The notes beneath the pieces are model-generated. The model had not been told where the DNA came from and searched no databases. It worked only from the letters and a program-made list of their open reading frames with translations. A stretch of 64,000 nt of DNA from Dromaius novaehollandiae (Eukaryota; Chordata; Aves; Casuariiformes; Dromaiidae), in assembly GCF_036370855.1 (NCBI RefSeq), contig NC_088112.1, forward strand, positions 13,880,469 through 13,944,468. Reading direction: 5' to 3'. Positions 32,586 through 64,000 of the stretch are shown one piece after another; within the stretch, counting starts at the first letter, position 1, and each line of letters begins with the position of its first letter. A program made the translations under genes and the position numbers.

Positions 32586-35500
32586 TCAGCATGTCCCCAG
32601 ATGCTTCAATCTTATTTTTCCTCCACTTTTCCTATAAAAGGAGCAAGGCAGACTCAGGCAGAGTAGTATATAACAGACAACACAGACACAGCAGTGCGGA
32701 ATAAGGAACTGATCCGTCAGAAGAGGACCATCTGCCTCACTGATGCTAGCAAACCCTGGAGCCTCACAAGGAATATCAAGCTGCTTTCTCCCTCTCCTTT
32801 CTCTTCTCAAATTTCCCCTGCGAGGTGGCAGTCTTCAGTAAGCACTAAAATGTGTATGACTGCTGGGGAGAAATTGATGTTTTGCAAGCACATTTGATCC
32901 AGAAGTGCTGGTTCCAATTACATCTCCTTTAAAGAAGGAGATGGGGAAACAGAGCTCCAGAAAAGGGTAAACTCTGGTTCTTCCTCTGAGGCTATGTCTT
33001 GTTCAACAAAGCCCAGCCAGACTTTTCAGCAACAATTTGATGTGGCTCAACTCCTGCATTCCCCCAGACACTTGTCAGTACCCAGAGGCTTGGGCAGTGG
33101 GAGTTTCAGCCTCTGGCATACAGTGGGATATGCTGTGGATCAATTTAGTCCCCACAGTAGGTTTAGGTAGAATGTAATTGGCTCCCAGGCCCTATGCTGT
33201 CTCTCTGCATGGCAACCAGAATCATAGCATTCAGGTAGCTCTGTTCCAAGGAGGAAATGTTATATTTGGCAGGAATCAGGGACCAGTCCATACAGGAGGA
33301 GCAGCCTGGATGCCAGGCCTCCCCTCCATGAAGAACATCATTGCATACATGAAACCTGGGCCAACCCTATATATTATTTCAATTCCCTTCACTTTCACTT
33401 ACAGAACTGCCTTGCAGAAGGCACACCGGTTTCCATACGTTACGCCATCCGTGCCACAGTGAGGATTGGACTCCCTCGTACAGTACACACTTCTGTTTGT
33501 AAACTCTCTACAAATCTGCAAAAGGAATTAAAAAAAAAGCTTTTAGGACTCCCGTACTCTTTCTTTGTTTCACATCTCTAGTGAGAAACAAGGTCACCAA
33601 TATAATTCTCTTTCTGTCGAGAGGACTGAAAGGAGCAGTGATGATATTGCCTATTTTGTGAAAGAAAAAGGCCTATCAGAAGTGAGCAGAAGTGGTGTTT
33701 CACGGAAATTTCAGCCCTGTGTCTGAGGAGGGAAGTTGTGATTACCTGGGAGAAATTCTCATCTTCTGAAGACAAAAGTGGATTAGCCCAGGCATGTAGG
33801 AGAAGAGTCAGCATTGATGTTCTTTCAGGCACTTGGCCCCAAGTTAGCTCACTGCTAAATGGCATCATGAGCATTGTGAAACAGTGTGCTCAGCTTCGTG
33901 ATTGCTGAGCTTTCTGCCTTCCCAGCAGAATGAGAAAAAGACACAGTTTTTAGGGGATTAAAAATGGTGTCCAGGAAATGTGCAGATATTTTGTCTCTGG
34001 ACAAATTCCCAGTAATGAACCTGGTTTGGGGGGAATAAAATACTCTCAATATCCCATTTGTTTCATGAGAAGATTGGATAGTGGAGCAAAGTGGACAAAA
34101 GCAGTGTTGCAAGGCTAAGCATATGAATACAACACTGTGCAAACACTCTGCACCTAATCCTGGGAGGCATTTGCTAAACTAGTTGTCTATTTCCCTGGTG
34201 TACTTGCTAGCATGGTCACATATTACGTCCCTTATACAATGGTGAACGCCCAAAAAGGTTGGAACAACTTGGAAGGATGCACCTGGTCCCACCAGAAATT
34301 AAAAAGTGTTTACCATGCACCAAGATCTGGGTTACAAAACCATTTGTCTAGAATCAGGAGAAAATGCAGATTCAGTAAGCAGAAACAGCTGCACTAACCT
34401 CTTCAATGTCTTGACCTGCTGCATCTGGAAGAAAAACACAGAGATTTTATGCAATTCAGCATTCTTTTCTGAAAGAAGCTGTATGAAAGTCACAAATCTT
34501 TTCCCCAAACACAGTGACATATGCTCTAGGTTTCCCCTACTCTGTCATCCTGTGTAGTGGAGGAGGGGGCAGGAAACTTTATCTGAACTGCTTTTCAGTA
34601 TTTTGCTTTTTGACAAATGCTATTAAAATAACATATTCATTCATCTGCTAACTGCACCTTACATATATAAACCAATCTCCTTGGAAGGCAGCCACTCCAA
34701 TGGAAGCAAGCTGCCATATCAGAATTGGAGCTGCACTCAACAAAGATTTTAATTCTTTATATTCATTTTTTGAGCTTTGAGTCTCCTGCAGCTCTATATA
34801 GTGAAAATGGCTGGTATTATTAACAGCAGCATTCTGTGAAGCTGTAGCAGAAGGTTCTGTGGTCAGCTTTAGAGCCATCAAAAGTATGATATGGCTCAGA
34901 GACTCTCCCAGAAGAACTTCATCCAGGATGAGATACAAAGAGGTGTCACACTGTGATACTGAGCAGAACAGGCAGTGCCAGTCTGTAAGAGAGCAAAATG
35001 CTCACTGTAACCACAGGGTCTGGGCTTGAAGATAATCAGTCATAGCCCCTTTATATTTCTTCACTGCAAAGACGGCAGTCAGATGCACAGGTTGAGTCAT
35101 ACCTGTGGGACAGGGCAACCCTGTGATCTCTTTAAGGGGGATCCTGGCACTTAGGGGAAGACTGAATGCGGATCTACAGGATGTGGTCCACCAGTACTCT
35201 CTGTATGTGGGACAGCCAAATACCCAGCATCTCACATGACAGTGAGGCAGCAGCAGTTTGGATGTGAGGTTGTGTGTCTAGCTGGGGAGGATTACAGCAG
35301 TGTGCTGAATGCCAGAAGCTGCTGCTGTACTTGCTCGGAGAAGTGCGGTCACTGCCAGTGTCTCACCAGGTGGCTCTGAGCAGAAGTGAACCTGGGCAGG
35401 AGGTGAGAAGACTTTGTACTCCACTTGGGCCCCCTCACTATGCAGGCTGGAAATCCCACCCAGCATCCAATCAGCTAGACCATTATCTATCAACCCACCC

Positions 35501-39992: not shown

Positions 39993-42900
39993 CTATGCCA
40001 GTGCTCTGCATTCCCCAGCATGTTTGAGGAAAAGAAGCTTGCTACTCCGTCTAAAGAGAAAGAGGGAGACCAAAATTACAAACATGGAATTCAGCTTGAT
40101 AGTCCCAGTGGTGCAGTTGCTATTTACCAAAATAAGTTGATGCCCTCATGCTGCCCAAGTTATAGAGTACTCCACTTAATATTTGACCTCCTTCCTGATT
40201 CCCCAGGTTATATGTTTTCTCATGTGAAAGAGATTCGGACAAATCCAGTAATTTTGGGCACCTCCTCCTACATATAGAGCTTAAATTACTCTTTGAGGGA
40301 GGGAGACAGCAAGACTGCAAATGGGAATCTGGCTTCAATTGTAAGGGAAGCAGAAGAGAAATGAAACTCACTTGGACTAAAGATCTGCAGTGCCTATGGA
40401 GTCATGGAAGAGTGAGTGTCAGGACAGGAGCATACAGCAGAGATGGATTTACGTAGGGGCCTCAAAGAGAGCTCTGGGGCTTTCATGACCAGCTGCTGCT
40501 CCTGCGTGTGTATTTCTGCTCTTCTAATGCAGCAGTGGTTTTATGACTACATGGTGAACTCCATACTTACTGAACTGAATAACAGAACCGGCATCTGTTT
40601 TCATATGTTTTGCCATCAGAGCCGCAAACAGGCTCATACTTAATGGTGCAGATGCCTTTGGCACGGAGGTGGTAACTGCAGTCAACCTGCAGGTAATGGA
40701 GCAACAACACATTTTAAACCTTTTGTGCCCAGTATTTCCCTACATGAGTGATTTACATTATTTAATGTTTGTGATATGGCAAAAACTAAAACCACTTTTT
40801 AGGGGCAGGGTTCTGTTCTAGCAGCTCTGTAAACTCAGAGGCAGAGAACATGCTTGCCTGGAGCCTGAAGTCAGATTCCAAGCAGTGCAGAAGATGGGAG
40901 AAAAAAATCTCAGAAATACTATCATAGAAAATGAAATGGCCATGTCAGTGTTTCCAGGCTGGCCCTCCCACTGGCTGCTGTACTTTGGCTGTGCAGTCTA
41001 GAAAAGACAGATTTACAGGAAGTGGATTGTTGCAAGCCGCGCAGTAAAAAGTACTCCACACCCAAGGAATCACAGCTACTATCCATGAGTATTTCTGATA
41101 ATAAATGATCCCCCTGCTCTCCTGCAGAAAGGATGAGACAGCATCTCCTGCTAAACCACTTTTCCCAGTGAATGAAGGTCTCAGCAGCAGCCAAATGCTG
41201 TGTTTCCAGGTTGGGAGTCCTACACATGGGGACTGCTATCTGAGCCATGGGTTTGTTTCCATATCCTTTAACCCTGGCATACCTTTACTGTTTTCCTCAT
41301 ATCCTATTTTCAGGCCATATTCCATGAGTTTAGTGCCAGAATAATGCAAGTGTTCCTATTATGCAGCTATGTTTCATTTAATTTATGCTGTATAATGTAT
41401 TGCAACAACAGATAATAGTGCAGATTTCTGAGCTTTACCTGCGAACAGTCTCCATGTCGGAGTAGCTCTATGTCAGCTCCATTCCTTTGGGAAGAAAGTG
41501 AGTTGAGAATGAATGAGCGTAGGGCAGCCATTTCAGGAATTAAATTACCTCTTTACTCTCTAAATATCAACCCAAGCATCTACTGATCCAAAAATCACTG
41601 CAGTGAACCCACCCATTCACTTACGCCACTGCAGTGCAGAATTCACACTGGTTGCCATAGGTAATCCCGTTGGTCGCACAGACTGGGTTGTACTCCAGGG
41701 TGCAGATATTGTCATCACCATTGGTTGCTCGCAGGTAGCCAGCGCAGTTGATCTGAAACAGTCACAGAACAATAGCTTTAATCTCTGCCCTCCATTACAT
41801 CTGTCCGGTGCAATGGAGCATGGTGCAAGACACATTTCCCCTTCTCCTCAAGGTAGCAGTAAACATATTGAGCTCTATGGAGACACGAGTTTCCAGCCCC
41901 AGCGCATTACAACTGAAGTAGCATGATTAGCTGAAATTCTGCCTCTGAGAACAGCACAATCCTGGAACATCTCTGCATTTTCCTGCCCTGAAATTGGCTC
42001 AGTGTCAGCTTGGGGTTTTTCCACCATGAACTCCACTGTGCCTAAAATGCCAGTTATATGGCAGTGACGGGACAGGAAATTTTGCTGTGAAATGTCTACA
42101 CAACTTCTGAAAATGGAGTTTACATTTGCCTAAGTATTTCTGCAAACATTACTTACTGTGAGAGTACTGAGATGAAAATTGCAGTATTATGTTAAATTGC
42201 ACAGCCCAGAGTGCTTCTTTATATAATCTCTCTATTCTAAAAATAGATACATCTCCACTCCATGGTAGCTCTACATATTGATAAACAAGTCTTATGATAA
42301 AAGTTCTGATAGACTATTTTTTCCATAACAAAATGATGGTTTAGTCAAAATCCAAATTTCCTCTGAGAATTTCTACATCTCAACAAAATTATTCTAAGCC
42401 TACAGGGAAGTGTTTTGATAATGCTGAAACATAATTGAAATCAAAAGCTTTAAATTTTAAGTTATGTGTTATACATAAGAAAACATTTTAAAACTCACAG
42501 TTGAAATAGAAGATTTTGATTGTTTGAAACAAATTAAAAAATAAACTCTTGAAAATCATAAATTCTTAACTTTGATTCCTTTTCAGACAGTATTGAAATT
42601 GTATTTTTCATGAAGAATAGCTCCTCTTGCCTAGCTTCCTGCCATCGTTTTACATCGCTGCTAAGTGCAGCTCAAGAAGGAGTGGAACGGATCTTGGACT
42701 ATACCTGAATGCATTTTCCATCATGCTTTTTGTCAACTGCTTTGCGACGCCTAGAGGGATAAAGAGAAGGAAAGGAAGCATAAGTCTGTCGATAGCATAG
42801 AGTCATCTCACTCATTACGTCTCTCCATTTGTGAAGCCCCAGTAATTAATCAAACTTAGGAGCTTTGTCACTGAAGAGATCCCTAGGGCAGACAGCAACT

Positions 42901-45900
42901 TCTGAAAAGTCTTCTAGACCACCCTGCGATTAGTCACAGTACCAAAGGCTTTTGTTGTCTGCTACTTGAGCTGGTATTTTAAGTGATCGGGAGAACTCAT
43001 TCTCACCAGATTTCTCTACAGAGTAAGCACTCGTTGGGGTAAGTCACACCATCAGTCCCACAGACGGGTTCCAATGTACTGGGACAAGCAAGATCTTTCC
43101 CCGAAGACAAGAAGTACGTGCTGCAGGAGGCCTATTAAAAAGGACAGAAAGTATAATTTGTCTGGTAGGGAGGAGGGTGTTTCGTGTTAATCATGTTTTC
43201 CTTGCATAGGGATACTACCGTTGATCTTTTTTCCTCTATTGCTCCTCCATGGTGAAGAAAGGGAGCAAAATACACCATGTTTCTCACAGTATGCATGGGC
43301 TCATTTCCACTGTTAAGGTATTCAGTACTGTAGACATGCATTACCGACAAAAATGATCGCTCCTTAGGGAATCAGGGCAGGGAAGGTATTTAGGTAGCTA
43401 TTTAAAAGAATGTGTATATTTTTGTATAGATAGTTTTGAAATTGTGTAATTTTCATGAAGAAGAATAGCTCCTCTTGCCTAGCTTCCTGCCATCGTTTTA
43501 CATCGCTGCTAAGTGCAGCTCAAGAAGGAGTGGAACGGATCTTGGACTATACCTGAATGCATTTTCCATCATGCTTTTTGTCAACTGCTTTGCGACGCCT
43601 AGAGGGATAAAGAGAAGGAAAGGAAGCATAAGTCTGTCGATAGCATAGAGTCATCTCACTCATTACGTCTCTCCATTTGTGAAGCCCCAGTAATTAATCA
43701 AACTTAGGAGCTTTGTCACTGAAGAGATCCCTAGGGCAGACAGCAACTTCTGAAAAGTCTTCTAGACCACCCTGCGATTAGTCACAGTACCAAAGGCTTT
43801 TGTTGTCTGCTACTTGAGCTGGTATTTTAAGTGATCGGGAGAACTCATTCTCACCAGATTTCTCTACAGAGTAAGCACTCGTTGGGGTAAGTCACACCAT
43901 CAGTCCCACAGACGGGTTCCAATGTACTGGGACAAGCAAGATCTTTCCCCGAAGACAAGAAGTACGTGCTGCAGGAGGCCTGTTAAAAAGGACAGAAAGT
44001 ATAATTTGTCTGGTAGGGAGGAGGGTGTTTCGTGTTAATCATGTTTTCCTTGCATAGGGATACTACCGTTGATCTTTTTTCCTCTATTGCTCCTCCATGG
44101 TGAAGAAAGGGAGCAAAATACACCATGTTTCTCACAGTATGCATGGGCTCATTTCCACTGTTAAGGTATTCAGTACTGTAGACATGCATTACCGACAAAA
44201 ATGATCGCTCCTTAGGGAATCAGGGCAGGGAAGATATTTAGGTAGCTATTTAAAAGAATGTGTATATTTTTGTATAGATAGTTTTGAAATTGTGTAATTT
44301 TCATGAAGAAGAATAGCTCCTCTTGCCTAGCTTGCTGCCATCGTTTTACATCGCTGCTAAGTGTAGCTCAAGAAGGAGTGGAACGGATCTTGGACTATAC
44401 CTGAACGCATTTTCCATCATGCTTTTTGTCAACTGCTTTGCGACGCCTAGAGGGATAAAGAGAAGGAAAGGAAGCATAAGTCTGTCGATAGCATAGAGTC
44501 ATCTCACTCATTACGTCTCTCCATTTGTGAAGCCCCAGTAATTAATCAAACTTAGGAGCTTTGTCACTGAAGAGATCCCTAGGGCAGACAGCAACTTCTG
44601 AAAAGTCTTCTAGACCACCCTGCGATTAGTCACAGTACCAAAGGCTTTTGTTGTCTGCTACTTGAGCTGGTATTTTAAGTGATCGGGAGAACTCATTCTC
44701 ACCAGATTTCTCTACAGAGTAAGCACTCGTTGGGGTAAGTCACACCATCAGTCCCACAGACGGGTTCCAATGTACTGGGACAAGCAAGATCTTTCCCCGA
44801 AGACAAGAAGTACGTGCTGCAGGAGGCCTGTTAAAAAGGACAGAAAGTATAATTTGTCTGGTAGGGAGGAGGGTGTTTCGTGTTAATCATGTTTTCCTTG
44901 CATAGGGATACTACCGTTGATCTTTTTTCCTCTATTGCTCCTCCATGGTGAAGAAAGGGAGCAAAATACACCATGTTTCTCACAGTATGCATGGGCTCAT
45001 TTCCACTGTTAAGGTATTCAGTACTGTAGACATGCATTACCGACAAAAATGATCGCTCCTTAGGGAATCAGGGCAGGGAAGATATTTAGGTAGCTATTTA
45101 AAAGAATGTGTATATTTTTGTATAGATAGTTTTGAAATTGTGTAATTTTCATGAAGAAGAATAGCTCCTCTTGCCTAGCTTCCTGCCATCGTTTTACATC
45201 GCTGCTAAGTGCAGCTCAAGAAGGAGTGGAACGGATCTTGGACTATACCTGAATGCATTTTCCATCATGCTTTTTGTCAACCTTTTTGCGACGCCTAGAG
45301 GGATAAAGAGAAGGAAAGGAAGCATAAGTCTGTCGATAGCATAGAGTCATCTCACTCATTACGTCCCTCCATTTGTGAAGCCCCAGTAATTAATCAAACT
45401 TAGGAGCTTTGTCACTGAAGAGATCCCTAGGGCAGACAGCAACTTCTGAAAAGTCTTCTAGACCACCCTGCGATTAGTCACAGTACCAAAGGCTTTTGTT
45501 GTCTGCTACTTGAGCTGGTATTTTAAGTGATCGGGAGAACTCATTCTCACCAGATTTCTCTACAGAGTAAGCACTCGTTGGGGTAAGTCACACCATCAGT
45601 CCCACAGACGGGTTCCAATGTACTGGGACAAGCAAGATCCTTCCCCGAAGACAAGAAGTACGTGCTGCAGGAGGCCTGTTAAAAAGGACAGAAAGTATAA
45701 TTTGTCTGGTAGGGAGGAGGGTGTTTCGTGTTAATCATGTTTTCCTTGCATAGGGATACTACCGTTGATCTTTTTTCCTCTATTGCTCCTCCATGGTGAA
45801 GAAAGGGAGCAAAATACACCATGTTTCTCACAGTATGCATGGGCTCATTTCCACTGTTAAGGTATTCAGTACTGTAGACATGCATTACCGACAAAAATGA

Positions 45901-48900
45901 TCGCTCCTTAGGGAATCAGGGCAGGGAAGATATTTAGGTAGCTATTTAAAAGAATGTGTATATTTTTGTATAGATAGTTTTGAAATTGTGTAATTTTCAT
46001 GAAGAAGAATAGCTCCTCTTGCCTAGCTTCCTGCCATCGTTTTACATCGCTGCTAAGTGCAGCTCAAGAAGGAGTGGAACGGATCTTGGACTATACCTGA
46101 ATGCATTTTCCATCATGCTTTTTGTCAACTGCTTTGCGACGCCTAGAGGGATAAAGAGAAGGAAAGGAAGCATAAGTCTGTCGATAGCATAGAGTCATCT
46201 CACTCATTACGTCTCTCCATTTGTGAAGCCCCAGTAATTAATCAAACTTAGGAGCTTTGTCACTGAAGAGATCCCTAGGGCAGACAGCAACTTCTGAAAA
46301 GTCTTCTAGACCACCCTGCGATTAGTCACAGTACCAAAGGCTTTTGTTGTCTGCTACTTGAGCTGGTATTTTAAGTGATCGGGAGAACTCATTCTCACCA
46401 GATTTCTCTACAGAGTAAGCACTCGTTGGGGTAAGTCACACCATCAGTCCCACAGACGGGTTCCAATGTACTGGGACAAGCAAGATCTTTCCCCGAAGAC
46501 AAGAAGTACGTGCTGCAGGAGGCCTGTTAAAAAGGACAGAAAGTATAATTTGTCTGGTAGGGAGGAGGGTGTTTCGTGTTAATCATGTTTTCCTTGCATA
46601 GGGATACTACCGTTGATCTTTTTTCCTCTATTGCTCCTCCATGGTGAAGAAAGGGAGCAAAATACACCATGTTTCTCACAGTATGCATGGGCTCATTTCC
46701 ACTGTTAAGGTATTCAGTACTGTAGACATGCATTACCGACAAAAATGATCGCTCCTTAGGGAATCAGGGCAGGGAAGGTATTTAGGTAGCTATTTAAAAG
46801 AATGTGTATATTTTTGTATAGATAGTTTTGAAATTGTGTAATTTTCATGAAGAAGAATAGCTCCTCTTGCCTAGCTTCCTGCCATCGTTTTACATCGCTG
46901 CTAAGTGCAGCTCAAGAAGGAGTGGAACGGATCTTGGACTATACCTGAATGCATTTTCCATCATGCTTTTTGTCAACTGCTTTGCGACGCCTAGAGGGAT
47001 AAAGAGAAGGAAAGGAAGCATAAGTCTGTCGATAGCATAGAGTCATCTCACTCATTACGTCTCTCCATTTGTGAAGCCCCAGTAATTAATCAAACTTAGG
47101 AGCTTTGTCACTGAAGAGATCCCTAGGGCAGACAGCAACTTCTGAAAAGTCTTCTAGACCACCCTGCGATTAGTCACAGTACCAAAGGCTTTTGTTGTCT
47201 GCTACTTGAGCTGGTATTTTAAGTGATCGGGAGAACTCATTCTCACCAGATTTCTCTACAGAGTAAGCACTCGTTGGGGTAAGTCACACCATCAGTCCCA
47301 CAGACGGGTTCCAATGTACTGGGACAAGCAAGATCTTTCCCCGAAGACAAGAAGTACGTGCTGCAGGAGGCCTGTTAAAAAGGACAGAAAGTATAATTTG
47401 TCTGGTAGGGAGGAGGGTGTTTCGTGTTAATCATGTTTTCCTTGCATAGGGATACTACCGTTGATCTTTTTTCCTCTATTGCTCCTCCATGGTGAAGAAA
47501 GGGAGCAAAATACACCATGTTTCTCACAGTATGCATGGGCTCATTTCCACTGTTAAGGTATTCAGTACTGTAGACATGCATTACCGACAAAAATGATCGC
47601 TCCTTAGGGAATCAGGGCAGGGAAGATATTTAGGTAGCTATTTAAAAGAATGTGTATATTTTTGTATAGATAGTTTTGAAATTGTGTAATTTTCATGAAG
47701 AAGAATAGCTCCTCTTGCCTAGCTTCCTGCCATCGTTTTACATCGCTGCTAAGTGCAGCTCAAGAAGGAGTGGAACGGATCTTGGACTATACCTGAATGC
47801 ATTTTCCATCATGCTTTTTGTCAACCTTTTTGCGACGCCTAGAGGGATAAAGAGAAGGAAAGGAAGCATAAGTCTGTCGATAGCATAGAGTCATCTCACT
47901 CATTACGTCCCTCCATTTGTGAAGCCCCAGTAATTAATCAAACTTAGGAGCTTTGTCACTGAAGAGATCCCTAGGGCAGACAGCAACTTCTGAAAAGTCT
48001 TCTAGACCACCCTGCGATTAGTCACAGTACCAAAGGCTTTTGTTGTCTGCTACTTGAGCTGGTATTTTAAGTGATCGGGAGAACTCATTCTCACCAGATT
48101 TCTCTACAGAGTAAGCACTCGTTGGGGTAAGTCACACCATCAGTCCCACAGACGGGTTCCAATGTACTGGGACAAGCAAGATCCTTCCCCGAAGACAAGA
48201 AGTACGTGCTGCAGGAGGCCTGTTAAAAAGGACAGAAAGTATAATTTGTCTGGTAGGGAGGAGGGTGTTTCGTGTTAATCATGTTTTCCTTGCATAGGGA
48301 TACTACCGTTGATCTTTTTTCCTCTATTGCTCCTCCATGGTGAAGAAAGGGAGCAAAATACACCATGTTTCTCACAGTATGCATGGGCTCATTTCCACTG
48401 TTAAGGTATTCAGTACTGTAGACATGCATTACCGACAAAAATGATCGCTCCTTAGGGAATCAGGGCAGGGAAGATATTTAGGTAGCTATTTAAAAGAATG
48501 TGTATATTTTTGTATAGATAGTTTTGAAATTGTGTAATTTTCATGAAGAAGAATAGCTCCTCTTGCCTAGCTTCCTGCCATCGTTTTACATCGCTGCTAA
48601 GTGCAGCTCAAGAAGGAGTGGAACGGATCTTGGACTATACCTGAATGCATTTTCCATCATGCTTTTTGTCAACTGCTTTGCGACGCCTAGAGGGATAAAG
48701 AGAAGGAAAGGAAGCATAAGTCTGTCGATAGCATAGAGTCATCTCACTCATTACGTCTCTCCATTTGTGAAGCCCCAGTAATTAATCAAACTTAGGAGCT
48801 TTGTCACTGAAGAGATCCCTAGGGCAGACAGCAACTTCTGAAAAGTCTTCTAGACCACCCTGCGATTAGTCACAGTACCAAAGGCTTTTGTTGTCTGCTA

Positions 48901-51039
48901 CTTGAGCTGGTATTTTAAGTGATCGGGAGAACTCATTCTCACCAGATTTCTCTACAGAGTAAGCACTCGTTGGGGTAAGTCACACCATCAGTCCCACAGA
49001 CGGGTTCCAATGTACTGGGACAAGCAAGATCTTTCCCCGAAGACAAGAAGTACGTGCTGCAGGAGGCCTGTTAAAAAGGACAGAAAGTATAATTTGTCTG
49101 GTAGGGAGGAGGGTGTTTCGTGTTAATCATGTTTTCCTTGCATAGGGATACTACCGTTGATCTTTTTTCCTCTATTGCTCCTCCATGGTGAAGAAAGGGA
49201 GCAAAATACACCATGTTTCTCACAGTATGCATGGGCTCATTTCCACTGTTAAGGTATTCAGTACTGTAGACATGCATTACCGACAAAAATGATCGCTCCT
49301 TAGGGAATCAGGGCAGGGAAGATATTTAGGTAGCTATTTAAAAGAATGTGTATATTTTTGTATAGATAGTTTTGAAATTGTGTAATTTTCATGAAGAAGA
49401 ATAGCTCCTCTTGCCTAGCTTCCTGCCATCGTTTTACATCGCTGCTAAGTGCAGCTCAAGAAGGAGTGGAATGGATCTTGGACTATACCTGAATGCATTT
49501 TCCATCATGCTTTTTGTCAACCTTTTTGCAACGCCTAGAGGGATAAAGAGAAGGAAAGGAAGCATAAGTCTGTCGATAGCATAGAGTCATCTCACTCATT
49601 ACGTCTCTCCATTTGTGAAGCCCCAGTAATTAATCAAACTTAGGAGCTTTGTCACTGAAGAGATCCCTAGGGCAGACAGCAACTTCTGAAAAGTCTTCTA
49701 GACCACCCTGCGATTAGTCACAGTACCAAAGGCTTTTGTTGTCCGCTACTTGAGCTGGTATTTTAAGTGATCGGGAGAACTCATTCTCACCAGATTTCTC
49801 TACAGAGTAAGCACTCGTTGGGGTAAGTCACACCATCAGTCCCACAGACGGGTTCAGAGGTCCTGGGACAAGCAAGGTCTTTCCCTGGAAACAGCAAGTA
49901 CGTGCTGCAGGAGGCCTGTTAAAAAGGACAGAAAGTATAATTTGTCTGGTAGGGAGAAGGGTGTTTCGTGTTAATCATGTTTTCCTTGCATAGGGATACT
50001 ACCGTTGATCTTTTTTCCTCCATTGCTCCTCCATGGTGAAGAAAGGGAGCAAAATACACCATGTTTCTCACAGTATGCATGGGCTCATTTCCACTGTTAA
50101 GGTATTCAGTACTGTAGACATGCATTACCGACAAAAATGATCGCTCCTTAGGGAATCAGGGCAGGGAAAATATTTAGGTAGTTATTTTAAAAAATGTATA
50201 GGTTTTCTGTTGTCTCTCTGTGCTGTGCAGAATTGCACTCTACATTATTAATTGCCATCTTTTATCATACACATGGTAAAATCTCTTTCTCTGACAGGTA
50301 TTTTCTTATTTTTGGAAAAAGAGGTAGTATAATTCTGAGGGGAACTTTTCTTTCTTCCTTTCTCTCTCACTTTCTCTCTTTCTTTGTGTGTCTCTCTCAA
50401 GACTTCTCTGGAATGCAGTGTAATTATGAATTATTTATCTGGACTTAGAAATCAAGACTAAATTAGAAAGATCACTCACCGATTGACCACCAGTAACGAC
50501 ATCTACAATAAAAAACAGAGATTATAAAATATAAAAGTTTTACAATGTCCTTGATTCATATTCATTTGGAGTCATTGATTTCCCATCAGTTACCAAATTC
50601 ACTTTCTTACTACTGAAAAGTGATTGTTTTCCCAAAAGTTTCTTCTAATCTGAGTAAACCAAAAGTAATATCCTAAGATAAAATATTTCAATTGTTTGTG
50701 GAAACAGAAATTTTGACTCACTAAAGAAGTAAGATATGAACTTTTCTCCTCTTGCAGCACTGTTATCCCCATTAAATCTCATAAACGTAAATCAGACAGA
50801 TGTGTCACTAGATCTATAGTATTTGCACAAGGATGAATTTCATCAAAAGAGAAATCATCGCCGTCTCTTCTCCAGAAAGTTGACCTCTTTTTTTAGGCTG
50901 CATACATAACCCCATCTTTCAACAGGCAAAGATTCAGGAAGACCAGAGATATTAGTACAGGCTACAATAGAAACAACTTACCAGAAAGACAGCTGAGAAA
51001 CTCTAGCCCCAGAAGGGCAACAATTCTTATTATCTTCAT
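39993..51039 (-). CDS. Kazal gene B: eleven-domain secreted protease inhibitor with nine tandemly amplified domains
   Basis: Twenty-four coding exons by my reading. Signal exon 51039-50982 ([19 protein letters not shown]), linker exon 50502-50480 (DVVTGGQS), then nine exon pairs of 125 + 46 nt inside the 848-bp array. Exon A starts at 49915 and steps down by 848 to 43131; exon B starts at 49534 and steps down to 42750. Then come domain 10 (41752-41625, 41484-41439) and domain 11 (40686-40571, 40050-39993, ending HAGECRALA and TAG). The sum is 1968 nt, 655 aa, in frame throughout, with every border GT-AG. Array domains read [16 protein letters not shown], then [15 protein letters not shown] and [10 protein letters not shown], ending DKKHDGKC. 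P1 is Arg in domain 1, Ser in 2-9, Leu in 10 and Ile in 11. Domain layout is like ovoinhibitor/SPINK5, but chicken ovoinhibitor has seven domains and lies on the other side of OVM, so this is probably a separate paralogue. The signal peptide has an odd Glu in its hydrophobic core. Confidence 0.9.
42591..50207 (-). repeat. Tandem array of nine 848-bp units, each one Kazal domain (two exons and introns)
   Basis: The period is exactly 848 bp across all nine copies; unit starts are about 42591, 43439, 44287, 45135, 45983, 46831, 47679, 48527 and 49375. Each unit has, in + order, exon B (46 nt), an intron of about 256 bp, exon A (125 nt), and a longer intron running to the next unit. Copies differ by only a handful of bases. 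Units 4 and 7 share three variants: CAACCTTTTTGCG in exon B, ACGTCCCTCC in the intron, AGATCCTTCC in exon A. Unit 3 has its own set. Unit 9, the 5'-most in the gene, differs in a clustered patch of exon A. The left edge (about 42591) and right edge (about 50207) fall in AT-rich sequence where similarity stops abruptly. Confidence 0.97.
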
Positions 51040-51099: not shown

Positions 51100-51160
51100 T
51101 GTTTCTCAGCTTTCACTGGCAGGACTATGTGTTGACTGTCTCTCTATATATATATCTCCC
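51100..51160 (-). promoter_or_regulatory. TATA box of Kazal gene B
   Basis: A run of alternating TATATATATA (+ coordinates 51145-51154) on the minus strand lies about 110 nt upstream of the start codon. Transcription would start near 51118, leaving a 5' UTR of about 80 nt, similar in layout to gene A. Confidence 0.6.
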
Positions 51161-56646: not shown

Positions 56647-58664
56647 TTAACACTCTCGAAGATAAAGCAAGGCAAGAGTACGACGTTTTTTCCTAGGGAG
56701 GAGGAAATAGTTATCTCACAGATAAAACATCTGGGCTTTTAATGTTTGTCTGTCCCTCCAGTGAAGGATTTATCATAGAGGAACTTAACCAAAACAGAAA
56801 ACTTCTGAAAGCTATTACAGCCATTTGCTTTTATTACTAACATTCAAAGACAAGATAAAGACTTAATTTAAAGGAAGAATAAATAGTCTGTTGGAAATAG
56901 ACTTTGTATGCTGGAAGAAAGCTCTTCAGCAAATTCCTTAACTCTACTACTGTTACCACCTTCTACCTCAAAGAAAGGAATTCCCAGCAAAATCTCCCCA
57001 TAAAAATCACCAGCCCTTACTGATAAGTAAACAGGTAAACACAAAATAAAAGCACTTCACTTCTCCCAGTGAAGGGCAAATAGATTAGTTAGTTTAAGCT
57101 AAGTTAGCTGTTCAGTTAGTGAAAAGATTTATTTTCATACATACAGAAATGCATTGCAGAATAAACATTTATTGCCATATGTTATGCCGTCAGACCCGCA
57201 ATGTGGGATGTGTTCCAGAGTGCAGAAAAGGCTGGGTATGACGTAGTCACTGCAGTAGTACTGTAGACAGATGAAACATTATGTTCACAAAAGATCTCTC
57301 AACAACTGATGGGTGACATTAGGAGAGACTAGAGATCCACCTGGGCTTCCTCTGGTACTGGCCAATAGCACATGCCTGGAAAGAGCTGACGGATAGGGCA
57401 GCAGTACAGTGGTGTGTTGCTAGTGCACCCTTCCAGCCTCTAGCAATGTAGAGCATGTGTAAATGTCGTAAATGCTGCTGCAGTAACTGTGACAATAACT
57501 TGGGCACTCACTGAATCCTGCACTACTTGTTGAAACTATCAGATGGAAATGAAAATTTCACCCCATAATATGTGCAGCAAATATTGCTGAAACAGCTGGA
57601 GGACTCAGGATCTTCAAATGCTCTATCATAATTAGCAATGATTTCTATTGAAACTGCTTTCAGGAAATAAATGATGGAGAATAACTAGAAAGAACTGTCC
57701 CTTACCTCTGCCTTCAGAGCAACGGTATCTGAAAAAAAAAAGAAAAAAAAACAGTAGAAAAGTAGAAAAACAGCAGATAGAAAAACAGCAGAAACTGTGA
57801 CACAAATGCAGCTCATGGATACTGGTATAGTTAAAATCTGCAAATATTTGTCCTGAATATACAACTTTTAATTCACTGTTAACAAATGCCTTCTTAGATA
57901 AAAATAATGCTACACAAAACTTTGTGCCATGTTATGTGTTACACCATTGATTCTGCAGTGTATATCATGAAGGTTACAGCCAAGATGAAAAAGGGTCCAT
58001 AAAATGAAGGAAAAGAAAAATATATTTTCTATGTCTCAGAGGATGAAGCAGGACATGTACTCAAATATAAACAGGTCAGTGAGAAAAACAAGGCCATACA
58101 GCTATTAAGTATCCTGGGACAGCTTCTTATATGCATTTCTATAGTAGCGCTTAAATAATGGAAGTATTTTGTGAGATGTAATATCTATAAAACTTCTACA
58201 ACTGTTCCAGTTCTCAAATCACATCTCTCAGTTTGTGATGGCTACAGGAAAAGTTCAGTTTCTTTCAGTAAACTAATCTGTGTTTCTGCAACATTTCACA
58301 GTTTAAATACTGGATGGCTGTGTCTCCTGGTTATACCACAGACATGTCGCTTCTTTCATTATGCATAAACTAGCGTTGATTGTAGAGCTGTTCCCACAGT
58401 TGTTCTTACCCACTCAGTTCTGTTGCTAAAATATTACCCCCTAAGTGATAGTCTCTGATGTCAAGTCTTTTCAACACCATCTTTCTAGGAGTAAATAAGT
58501 CCTTGTAGAATGAAACTCTTTCCAGTCAGAGGATGTTTTTGCAGTTTTAAAGACAGCCAGAACTTACTCAAACACAGAGCAATAGGCACTAGGCAGTAAA
58601 GTTACTCACCTGGGAAGCAGTAAAGGGCTAGAGCAAACAGCATCAACGTGCCTGCTGTCTTCAT
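56647..58664 (-). CDS. Kazal gene C: single-domain secreted serine protease inhibitor, complete
   Basis: Four coding exons on the minus strand: 58664-58610 (signal), 57728-57706 (23 nt), 57260-57145 (Cys 1-5) and 56692-56647 (Cys 6 and stop). Junction phases are 1, 0, 2, identical to gene A, and all borders are GT-AG. The product is 79 aa: signal [18 protein letters not shown], linker DTVALKAE, then a Kazal domain with [29 protein letters not shown] and a terminal REC plus stop. The loop reads CTLEHIPHC, so P1 is Leu, as in the classic ovomucoid third domain; chymotrypsin- or elastase-like targets are predicted. The last exon ([14 protein letters not shown]) is unusually basic at its start where relatives have SNGT, so the usual glycosylation sequon is missing. 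No clear TATA box is visible; a weak CATATGCATG lies near 58745. Confidence 0.9.
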
Positions 58665-61687: not shown

Positions 61688-63511
61688 TGATTCCTTCTTG
61701 TGCAGTTACTCTCTTCTTTTTCTGATGTGGATTGTGTGGATAATGTGTATTATGTGTGGAGAAAGCAAAATCTTTCCCTGTGCTGAAGCTGTGCTTGCAT
61801 AGCCTGCTACTAGTCTTCAGGCTGTTACAGACACTTGCACTCTTTTCACTGACAGCAGAGGGGCTAACACCTAGCCCTTCATTACATAATTCACACTTAC
61901 TGTAGCAAATTCCTTCTTGCATTCACCATCATACTTCTTGCCAATGCTGGTACCCTGTTCTCTGGAAAAGGAGAGGCAAGTGTCAGGGAGCTCTGCAAGC
62001 AACCTGCTCTGTTAAACTCTGCCCCAGTGATACTGATTGGCCTCAGGTGTAATGTATGGGATACAAGATACATCCAGCTTAGCCTGTGTCTGCTCTGCTC
62101 TAGACACCAGCTCAGGAAACAACCCCTCTCCCTAGCAAGCAAGCCGGGCCACTGACTTACATCTACACAGCTCAGAGCTAGACCCCCCACACACACACAC
62201 ACACGAGACAGTCTTTGTCCATTTTCCTGGACATGCAGTGTGGTGCCCAATGGCCTTGAAGACATGCACTTGAAGACAAGTGTTTTGTGGCATTTTTGTT
62301 CAGAGAGCCAGATATGTAAGGTGGTGCCACAGCCTGCCAGAGTGCTGTTTTATAAAGCATGATGCTAAGGACAAGAGAGGGCACAGGGTGTTAGGGGGAA
62401 ATAGGAGCTGGGTCATTTGAAAAGGCAGATGCACATTAAGTTAGTTGCTATTCTCTGCAAGGCAACATCTGCCACACAGACCCTTTCAATTTAGTTACGA
62501 GAAGCATTCTCTCCTGCATTAAATCCCCACTGAGCCCTCTGCTGCTTTTCTGAGATGAAAGGCACAGTTTTCCTTCTAAGCACAAAGGAAAACAAGGTCT
62601 ACTTATCAGGGAAGAAGGAAGGTCAGAGTCCCAGAGCTTTACAGAAAAGGCCTTGGTAGAAATTCTGCTGTTTTAAAAGTGCAACTGCCAGGAGTCCAGA
62701 GCGCTTGTTGCCTACTCACAAGGAGAGCTCTGCATACACAGTACTTACATGTTGTGAGCACACAGCAGGCATTCGTTGCTGTAAGTGACTCCGTCGGTAC
62801 CACAGACAGGGCTGAGGATCTTGGTGCAGAGTGGCACCTCTTTGCCTTCCTCATTTGTAGCGTTGGCATATTTACTGCAGTCAATCTGTGGAAGGAACAT
62901 ACAACAAAATACTGGTGAAGACTTATTTATAGGAAGCAAGTATATCTGGTGGATTTGTGCCTTTGGCCTTTTGAGGGTCCACCACAGTAGAAAAAAATGC
63001 TTTTTGTGTCATTATGATGAAGTTTCACCGTAAGAAGATCAATACAAGATTCTGGCATCACATACAACCTCTTATTTAGTGTCTTGAATTGTCTCTTGGG
63101 GAAGTCAATGAGCAGCTTTGACTACTCAGAAGTTGGACCCAACTGTTGCCCTGCCCTTCATTTCACTTACAGGAACAACTTCCTTGCATTCTCCATCGTG
63201 GTCTTTGCTGACATTGGCTCCATATTCACTGGAGAGGGAAAGACAAGCATTAGGAAGTTCAGCAGAGAGTTCTTGCTGCATCCTAAGTGCTGGGAATATA
63301 TGTCTAATCTAAAGGGAAGCAGACTCATTCGAGTTTGCCTGCTCACAAGGAGAGCTCCTCTATCCAGTACGTACATGTTGTAGGCACACAGTAGGCAATC
63401 ATTGCTGTAAGTGACTCCATCGCTACCACAGATGGGGTTAAGGATCTTAGGGCAGAGCAGCACCTCTTTGCCATCCTCATTCGTAGTGTTGGGATATTTA
63501 CTGCAGTCAAC
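60216..63511 (-). CDS. OVM: Ovomucoid (OVM, SPINK7), 5' end beyond the window
   Basis: Six exons encode three complete Kazal domains. Domain 1: 63511-63375 and 63228-63171. Domain 2: 62885-62749 and 61961-61901. Domain 3: 60860-60751 and 60261-60216. Borders are GT-AG and phases are 0, 2, 0, 2, 0, 2. Readable blocks are [70 protein letters not shown], the linker [26 protein letters not shown] and the end [14 protein letters not shown] plus stop. This is the egg-white trypsin inhibitor of birds, secreted by the oviduct. P1 is Lys in domains 1 and 2 and Leu in domain 3. Sequons NTT, NVS, NAT and NGT are kept, fitting a heavily glycosylated protein. The signal and linker exons are not found with confidence before 64000, so the gene is partial here. 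Confidence 0.96.
61645..61684. repeat. Poly(T) run of 40 in an ovomucoid intron
   Basis: An uninterrupted T run lies in the intron before the third ovomucoid domain. On the transcribed minus strand it reads as poly(A), so it may be the tail of a retroposon or a simple repeat; no body of a known element is recognisable next to it. Run length in the assembly may be unreliable. Confidence 0.8.
62188..62204. repeat. Short CA microsatellite in an ovomucoid intron
   Basis: About eight CA repeats follow a C run, within the intron between the two domain 2 exons. Confidence 0.8.
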
Positions 63512-64000
63512 CTGTCAAAGGAACATACAACAGGGCAGTGAAAACAATTTGCATTCGCATCTCTCATTTAACATGAGAGAAGGACCAGATACAACTGCCC
63601 TACAGTGAATTTTTTTTACTCTGTTGTTGCTACTGTAGAACAAACTTGCCCATGTATGTCAATCTGTATCCTTTCTGCAGGGATACCCTGCCCCAGTGCA
63701 GTGGGTGAGGAGGATGACAGGGTTACACCCATGCAGCCACCATCTGGGGTAGGTCAGTGGCAGTCTCTTACGCTCACTAGATGTCATTTTACAAAGGCTG
63801 AGCTTTGGTCCCTCATTCTTACCTTCCTGTGGCATCCGCAGAGCACTTCCACTATTACCCTTTCATTTTCAAAGCATGGATGGTTTTATCAGAAGAACAA
63901 CTCTCCTGAATATCCACACACATGATGTGTGGAAGCTGGAGTGCCTTATACGGTTTTATTCTTTCACCAGGTTGTATTTGGAAAGTTTCTGATGCCACAG
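63512..64000 (-). other. OVM: Ovomucoid intron leading to unseen 5' exons
   Basis: Intron sequence upstream of the first domain 1 exon. The short linker exon usual in this family (phase 1 to 0, here 23-26 nt in paralogues) was sought. One donor-like site (GGAAG/gtaaga, minus strand, near 63825) has acceptor-like AGs 23 or 29 nt upstream with the right length modulo 3, but the encoded residues include extra cysteines and do not resemble an ovomucoid linker, so I do not call it. Confidence 0.4.

Follow-up and report, generated by a model that had tools for sequence, protein, structure and literature searches.

A tandem array of nine near-identical Kazal-domain units with a divergent reactive loop in a predicted multi-Kazal inhibitor gene of Dromaius novaehollandiae

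The window analyzed here, a 64,000-nucleotide stretch of the Dromaius novaehollandiae genome (assembly GCF_036370855.1, contig NC_088112.1, positions 13,880,469 to 13,944,468), contains a predicted gene dominated by nine tandem units with an exact period of 848 bp. Each unit consists of the two exons of one Kazal domain with their introns, and the units are near-identical except, in the main, for a short patch in the reactive-site loop of the most promoter-proximal domain, D1. The overall explanation that we favor, and consider likely, is that this is a multi-Kazal inhibitor gene in which one unit was multiplied and its copies homogenized while the D1 loop was spared.

The array extends over 42591..50207 on the minus strand. 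Its exon A anchors (n = 9; the lower exon A coordinates of D9 to D1 in Table 1, from 43007 to 49791) are spaced by steps of exactly 848 bp, and the same is true of the exon B anchors (n = 9). In every unit, 125 nt of exon A and 46 nt of exon B give 57 codons (171 nt); the inner intron is in phase 2 and both outer borders are in phase 0. With phase-0 introns on either side of each unit, the frame is maintained whatever the copy number. The first-pass annotation had described nine near-identical 848-bp units, introns included, with 171 nt of exon in phase 0 outside and 57 codons per unit; the anchor spacing and unit comparison bear this out. The copy number of nine also stands, but the strand had to be corrected to minus, and the proposed span, although right overall, is blurred at its edges, where identity is lost over approximately 25 bp on the left and 50 bp on the right. 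Nine 848-bp copies can hardly be put down to chance. When one unit was used as a query against the whole assembly (1.468 Gb, 271 contigs), 9 matches were obtained, all inside the array, and this search gave no sign of a second locus, of a stray copy from the other haplotype or of a dispersed repeat. The lack of matches elsewhere in the assembly led us to reject a transposable element as the source of the unit. An Rfam scan of the window yielded 0 matches at the gathering score, and the array is missing from the Tandem Repeats Finder (TRF) list because the longest TRF period was 500.

Splicing of a signal-like exon, a 23-nt exon, the nine array domains and two further Kazal domains (D10 and D11) results in an open frame of exactly 655 aa with one terminal stop. 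All 23 introns of this 24-exon model are GT-AG and the border check revealed no failures, in support of the earlier proposal of a single gene with two exons per domain, eleven domains and about 655 aa. None of the nine units has a stop, a frameshift or a lost splice border; the acceptor of D9 exon A is TAG instead of CAG but is still AG. String matches, made with no promoter test, place a TATA-like box 115 nt 5' of the ATG and the first polyadenylation-like signal, AATAAA, 99 nt past the stop. The N terminus is signal-like as judged by hydropathy values rather than a signal-peptide program, which agrees with the secreted inhibitor proposed earlier, secretion itself being a prediction. Assuming that the first 19 residues are removed, the predicted mature chain is 70.1 kDa with a pI of 8.2 and 67 cysteines, and no N-X-S/T site is found in it. 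The Pfam Kazal_1 family (PF00050) scored above its curated cut-off in 5/5 sequences scanned (50–187 bits versus a cut-off of 21), namely a shortened chain, D1, D2, D10 and D11, with D3–D9 not scanned singly. As read from the translation, the six cysteines and the P15' Asn are kept in 11/11 domains. A contact-residue rule for Kazal domains is given in PMC1236909. The P1 residues are Arg in D1, Ser in D2–D9, Leu in D10 and Ile in D11, making four kinds of predicted reactive site. The gene has the appearance of an intact, ovoinhibitor-type gene for a multi-Kazal serine-protease inhibitor that is predicted to be secreted. Exon B of D1 (49489-49534) also encodes a seventh, unpaired-looking Cys at domain position 44 (R44C relative to D2–D9), which might allow a disulphide-linked dimer to form.

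Units were compared over a 765-bp core, from which 83 edge bases of each unit were excluded owing to the divergence of the outermost units in this part; the outer edges of the array are probably more diverged because exchange partners run out at these positions. Pairwise, D2–D9 differ at 0–8 bases of the core. D2, D4, D5 and D8 are identical to one another, as are D3 and D6, while D7 has three private changes and D9 has one. Since identical unit types are found in mostly non-adjacent places, this pattern appears to point to exchange between units, in blocks of one and of several units. The D1 unit, on the other hand, differs from each other unit at 17–21 bases. The near-identity described in the first-pass annotation holds best for D2–D9; the promoter-proximal unit at the right-hand end is distinctly different in its coding loop. 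Likewise, the conclusion of a very recent expansion or homogenization, drawn from the near-identical introns, is supported as far as recency is concerned, but it is an incomplete account, as the patch in the D1 loop leaves the array non-uniform. Codon 46 (49522-49524 in D1) is GCA in six units but AAG in D1, D3 and D6, a change of all three bases with nearly no change nearby.

Of the 15 core differences private to D1, 10 fall within codons 7–20 of exon A, a 42-bp stretch around the reactive site. Ten differences in any 42-bp window were reached in 0/100,000 random placements. Non-coding sequence of the D1 unit differs at only 4/927 positions (inner intron 1/256, next intron 1/421 and 5' flank 2/250, the flank being cut at 50165, short of the array's own edge). 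Nei-Gojobori counting within the patch gave 4.5 synonymous changes over 10.5 sites and 5.5 amino-acid changes over 31.5 sites (pS 0.43, pN 0.18; dS 0.64, dN 0.20), and its synonymous divergence exceeds that of the non-coding sequence with a Fisher p of 4.5e-7 when the patch is rounded to 4/10. Divergence is thus low on both sides of a short, highly diverged functional stretch. Such a local divergence peak between otherwise converted duplicates has been described as a sign of a selected site (PMC3924837), the gibbon opsins providing an example (PMC3213168). Because synonymous sites are raised as well, the patch appears older than its surroundings. The contact positions that differ inside it are P1 (Arg in D1, Ser in D2–D9) and P2', and the remaining amino-acid changes are N-terminal of the loop. 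The patch resembles an old island of reactive-loop sequence within DNA that was homogenized recently. It favors concerted evolution in which one site was spared, or the import of a tract, over simple recent amplification. Pure positive selection as the sole cause of the D1 loop was rejected on the grounds that synonymous change is raised too, making the patch old or imported; this rejection involved no test of dN/dS against 1.

In the mechanism that we propose, one two-exon domain unit would have been multiplied, introns and all, by unequal crossing-over. Further unequal crossing-over of one- and several-unit blocks, together with gene conversion, would then keep the introns and scaffold codons near-identical. 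D1 would have been homogenized on both sides, with its reactive-site loop and P1 Arg surviving exchange as an old island; the most likely reason is that an overwritten loop would no longer provide a distinct protease specificity. The chain predicted from the gene would be 70 kDa with Arg, eight Ser, Leu and Ile reactive sites. We give about even chances to the more specific idea that D1 started out as a distinct domain, its scaffold later being overwritten and its loop kept. More tentatively, and with somewhat less than an even chance of being correct, the gene may encode a self-overwriting inhibitor, in which exchange keeps replacing the scaffold and introns of all domains, a once distinct D1 among them, while selection spares the 14-codon D1 loop, so that the number of identical heads could change between individuals and one trypsin-type head would stay fixed at the N terminus.

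Several points weigh against the favored explanation. The data are the sequence of one assembly from one individual, and conversion events were not observed directly. The island amounts to 10 nucleotide changes in all, and its 42-bp window size was picked after the differences had been viewed. Nor is it the sole coding difference between D1 and D2, which also differ in exon B by R44C and codon 46. Eight copies carry Ser at P1, which is not a classic strong-inhibitor residue, and the weak domain tree described below does not place D10 with ovoinhibitor domain 6. Finally, the edges of the island are sharp: the remainder of exon A (codons 1–6 and after codon 20) is the same in D1 and D2. Repeated conversion would tend to leave sloping edges, and a single imported tract fits about as well.

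This last point is what an origin in one neutral event would give. The island would then be a short conversion tract from a diverged Kazal exon, or clustered mutation, with no part played by selection; an imported tract could have entered either D1 or the founder of D2–D9 before amplification. The island is enriched in both synonymous and amino-acid changes, as expected of such a tract. However, the patch falls on the specificity-determining loop, and no donor was found. A seeded whole-genome search with D1 exon A as the query matched the nine array exons and nothing else, although a diverged donor could be missed by it, and the longest exact words that 224 kb (array exons masked, both strands) had in common with either loop version were 11–12 nt, no more than random pieces give. 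With shared words at this chance level, a templated copy of the patch from nearby sequence is unsupported. On balance we regard a single neutral event as rather unlikely. The array exons could also be a dead or mostly skipped expansion, with a short working product such as D1 + D10 + D11. D2–D9 are redundant and have Ser at P1, and the frame would survive the skipping of whole units. Against this stand the intact frames and splice borders of all nine units, including the AG kept at the D9 acceptor, but the argument is a weak one because recent homogenization alone could have preserved them; overall, a dead array seems improbable. Less probable still is a wrong copy number through expansion or collapse of a longer or shorter array by the assembler, for while four units identical over the core make repeat errors possible, the contig is 23.8 Mb long, the 224 kb examined are free of N, D1, D3/D6, D7 and D9 carry distinguishing variants, and the whole-assembly search detected no unit copies on other contigs.

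The array gene lies among other Kazal genes on the same strand. Upstream of it, with exons at ~60.2–63.5 kb, is a three-domain ovomucoid gene; its domains, joined without linkers, match PDB 1yu6_C with an E of 7e-85 over 171 aa, in line with the cluster of egg proteins suggested in the first-pass annotation. Further upstream, beyond the window at ~78–87 kb in window numbering, are seven ovoinhibitor-type exon pairs. The sixth of these domains agrees at 29/34 residues with an ovoinhibitor peptide (matched to a killdeer record and printed in PMC8535018). Among ovoinhibitor- and ovomucoid-type sequences, the best relatives of the array domains are ~50% identical to them in exon A. In a domain tree that is weak (0/15 inner branches starred), D1–D3 group with ovomucoid domains 1–2 and ovoinhibitor domains 1–6, and D10/D11 group with ovomucoid domain 3, ovoinhibitor domain 7 and two single exons. 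These single Kazal exons flank the array gene at 57156-57254 and 33414-33512; they group weakly with ovoinhibitor domain 7, each has a candidate terminal exon, and they are possibly small single-domain genes. Exon A stretches of ovomucoid domains 1 and 2 (62708-62906 and 63335-63532), which by reading include roughly 20–40 bp of flanking intron, are 85% identical over 199 bp, which suggests that exchange may have taken place between these domains as well. Outside the window, a 195-bp stretch is perfectly duplicated in tandem (115103-115492 in window numbering, locus L016).

Table 1. Features of the predicted array gene, in positions of the window.
Feature	Position	Strand	Basis
Whole predicted gene, TATA-like box to first AATAAA	39888..51154	-	frame, splice borders, string matches
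TATA-like box	51149..51154	-	string match
Exon 1: ATG and signal-like peptide	50982..51039	-	frame, hydropathy
Exon 2, 23 nt, short linker	50480..50502	-	GT-AG borders, frame
Array of nine units, D1 at right-hand end, D9 at left	42591..50207	-	period, assembly search, unit comparison
D1 exon A, P1 Arg	49791..49915	-	splice model
D1 reactive-loop island, codons 7-20	49856..49897	-	10/15 D1-private core differences
D1 exon B, seventh Cys at domain position 44	49489..49534	-	splice model
D2 exon A, P1 Ser	48943..49067	-	splice model
D2 exon B	48641..48686	-	splice model
D3 exon A	48095..48219	-	splice model
D3 exon B, codon 46 AAG (Lys)	47793..47838	-	splice model
D4 exon A	47247..47371	-	splice model
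D4 exon B	46945..46990	-	splice model
D5 exon A	46399..46523	-	splice model
D5 exon B	46097..46142	-	splice model
D6 exon A	45551..45675	-	splice model
D6 exon B, codon 46 AAG (Lys)	45249..45294	-	splice model
D7 exon A	44703..44827	-	splice model
D7 exon B, I56V	44401..44446	-	splice model
D8 exon A	43855..43979	-	splice model
D8 exon B	43553..43598	-	splice model
D9 exon A, acceptor TAG	43007..43131	-	sequence, border check
D9 exon B	42705..42750	-	splice model
D10 exon A, P1 Leu	41625..41752	-	splice model, Pfam
D10 exon B	41439..41484	-	splice model
D11 exon A, P1 Ile	40571..40686	-	splice model, Pfam
D11 exon B and stop codon	39993..40050	-	splice model
AATAAA	39888..39893	-	string match

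Ovoinhibitor (SPINK5-type) shares with the array gene its tandem Kazal domains, each in two exons. The layout with phase 0 outside and phase 2 inside is found in the array, D10 and D11, a phase-2 split is likewise read from the sequence in the seven upstream exon pairs of ovoinhibitor type, and D10 has a CAT(N/D)GITY stretch in common with the sixth of their domains. However, ovoinhibitor has seven Kazal domains (PMC9363672), and those encoded here are diverse in sequence, whereas the array gene has eleven domains, nine of them near-identical copies of one type. Since a separate seven-domain set is present, the array gene looks like a paralogue rather than ovoinhibitor itself. Ovomucoid (SPINK7) belongs to the same cluster and has the same domain and intron layout, and D11 exon A is 53% identical to its domain 3. 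Nevertheless, it is encoded by a separate gene without an array, and its three domains, the third of them short between C1 and C2, differ from the eleven of the array gene. Potato type II inhibitors are a plant family with eight cysteines per repeat and a fold unrelated to Kazal. They are also built of tandem inhibitor repeats, which in some clades are strikingly alike within a gene, and their P1 is a positively selected site (PMC2259423). In the L and M opsins of human and gibbon, introns are homogenized by conversion while the functional exon 5 stays diverged (PMC3924837, PMC3213168), but these are two whole genes with a measured spectral function instead of domains of one gene with a predicted inhibitor loop. 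Abalone VERL, a reproductive protein that is secreted, likewise shows a large expansion of repeated domains (23 ZP-N; PMC8830517), but its domains are ZP-N and it is an egg-coat protein rather than an inhibitor. The closest working analogue in build is LPA KIV-2, a highly homologous coding repeat whose genomic unit contains the two short exons of one domain with introns (PMC11462820). The unit described here is likewise frame-neutral and made of whole exons and introns (171 nt of exon per 848 bp), but KIV-2 encodes a kringle instead of a Kazal domain, in 5.6-kb units of which 1 to ~40 copies per allele are reported. The Kazal domain, the intron layout, coding variable-number tandem repeats (VNTRs) and divergence peaks are each already known. 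Their combination was not found among the matches listed, which is weak evidence of absence because subscription journals, preprints and annotated bird genomes were outside the scope of the search.

If copy number varies, the array would be a bird counterpart of LPA KIV-2, that is, a coding VNTR determining the valency of a predicted secreted protease inhibitor. It would also be a VNTR in an egg-protein gene cluster, possibly tied to microbial or reproductive proteases. The D1 island offers a compact natural test of whether selection can shield a 42-bp reactive loop from homogenization, and Kazal domains are well suited to such a test because the effects of contact residues on inhibition have been tabulated from 191 variants of one Kazal domain (PMC1236909).

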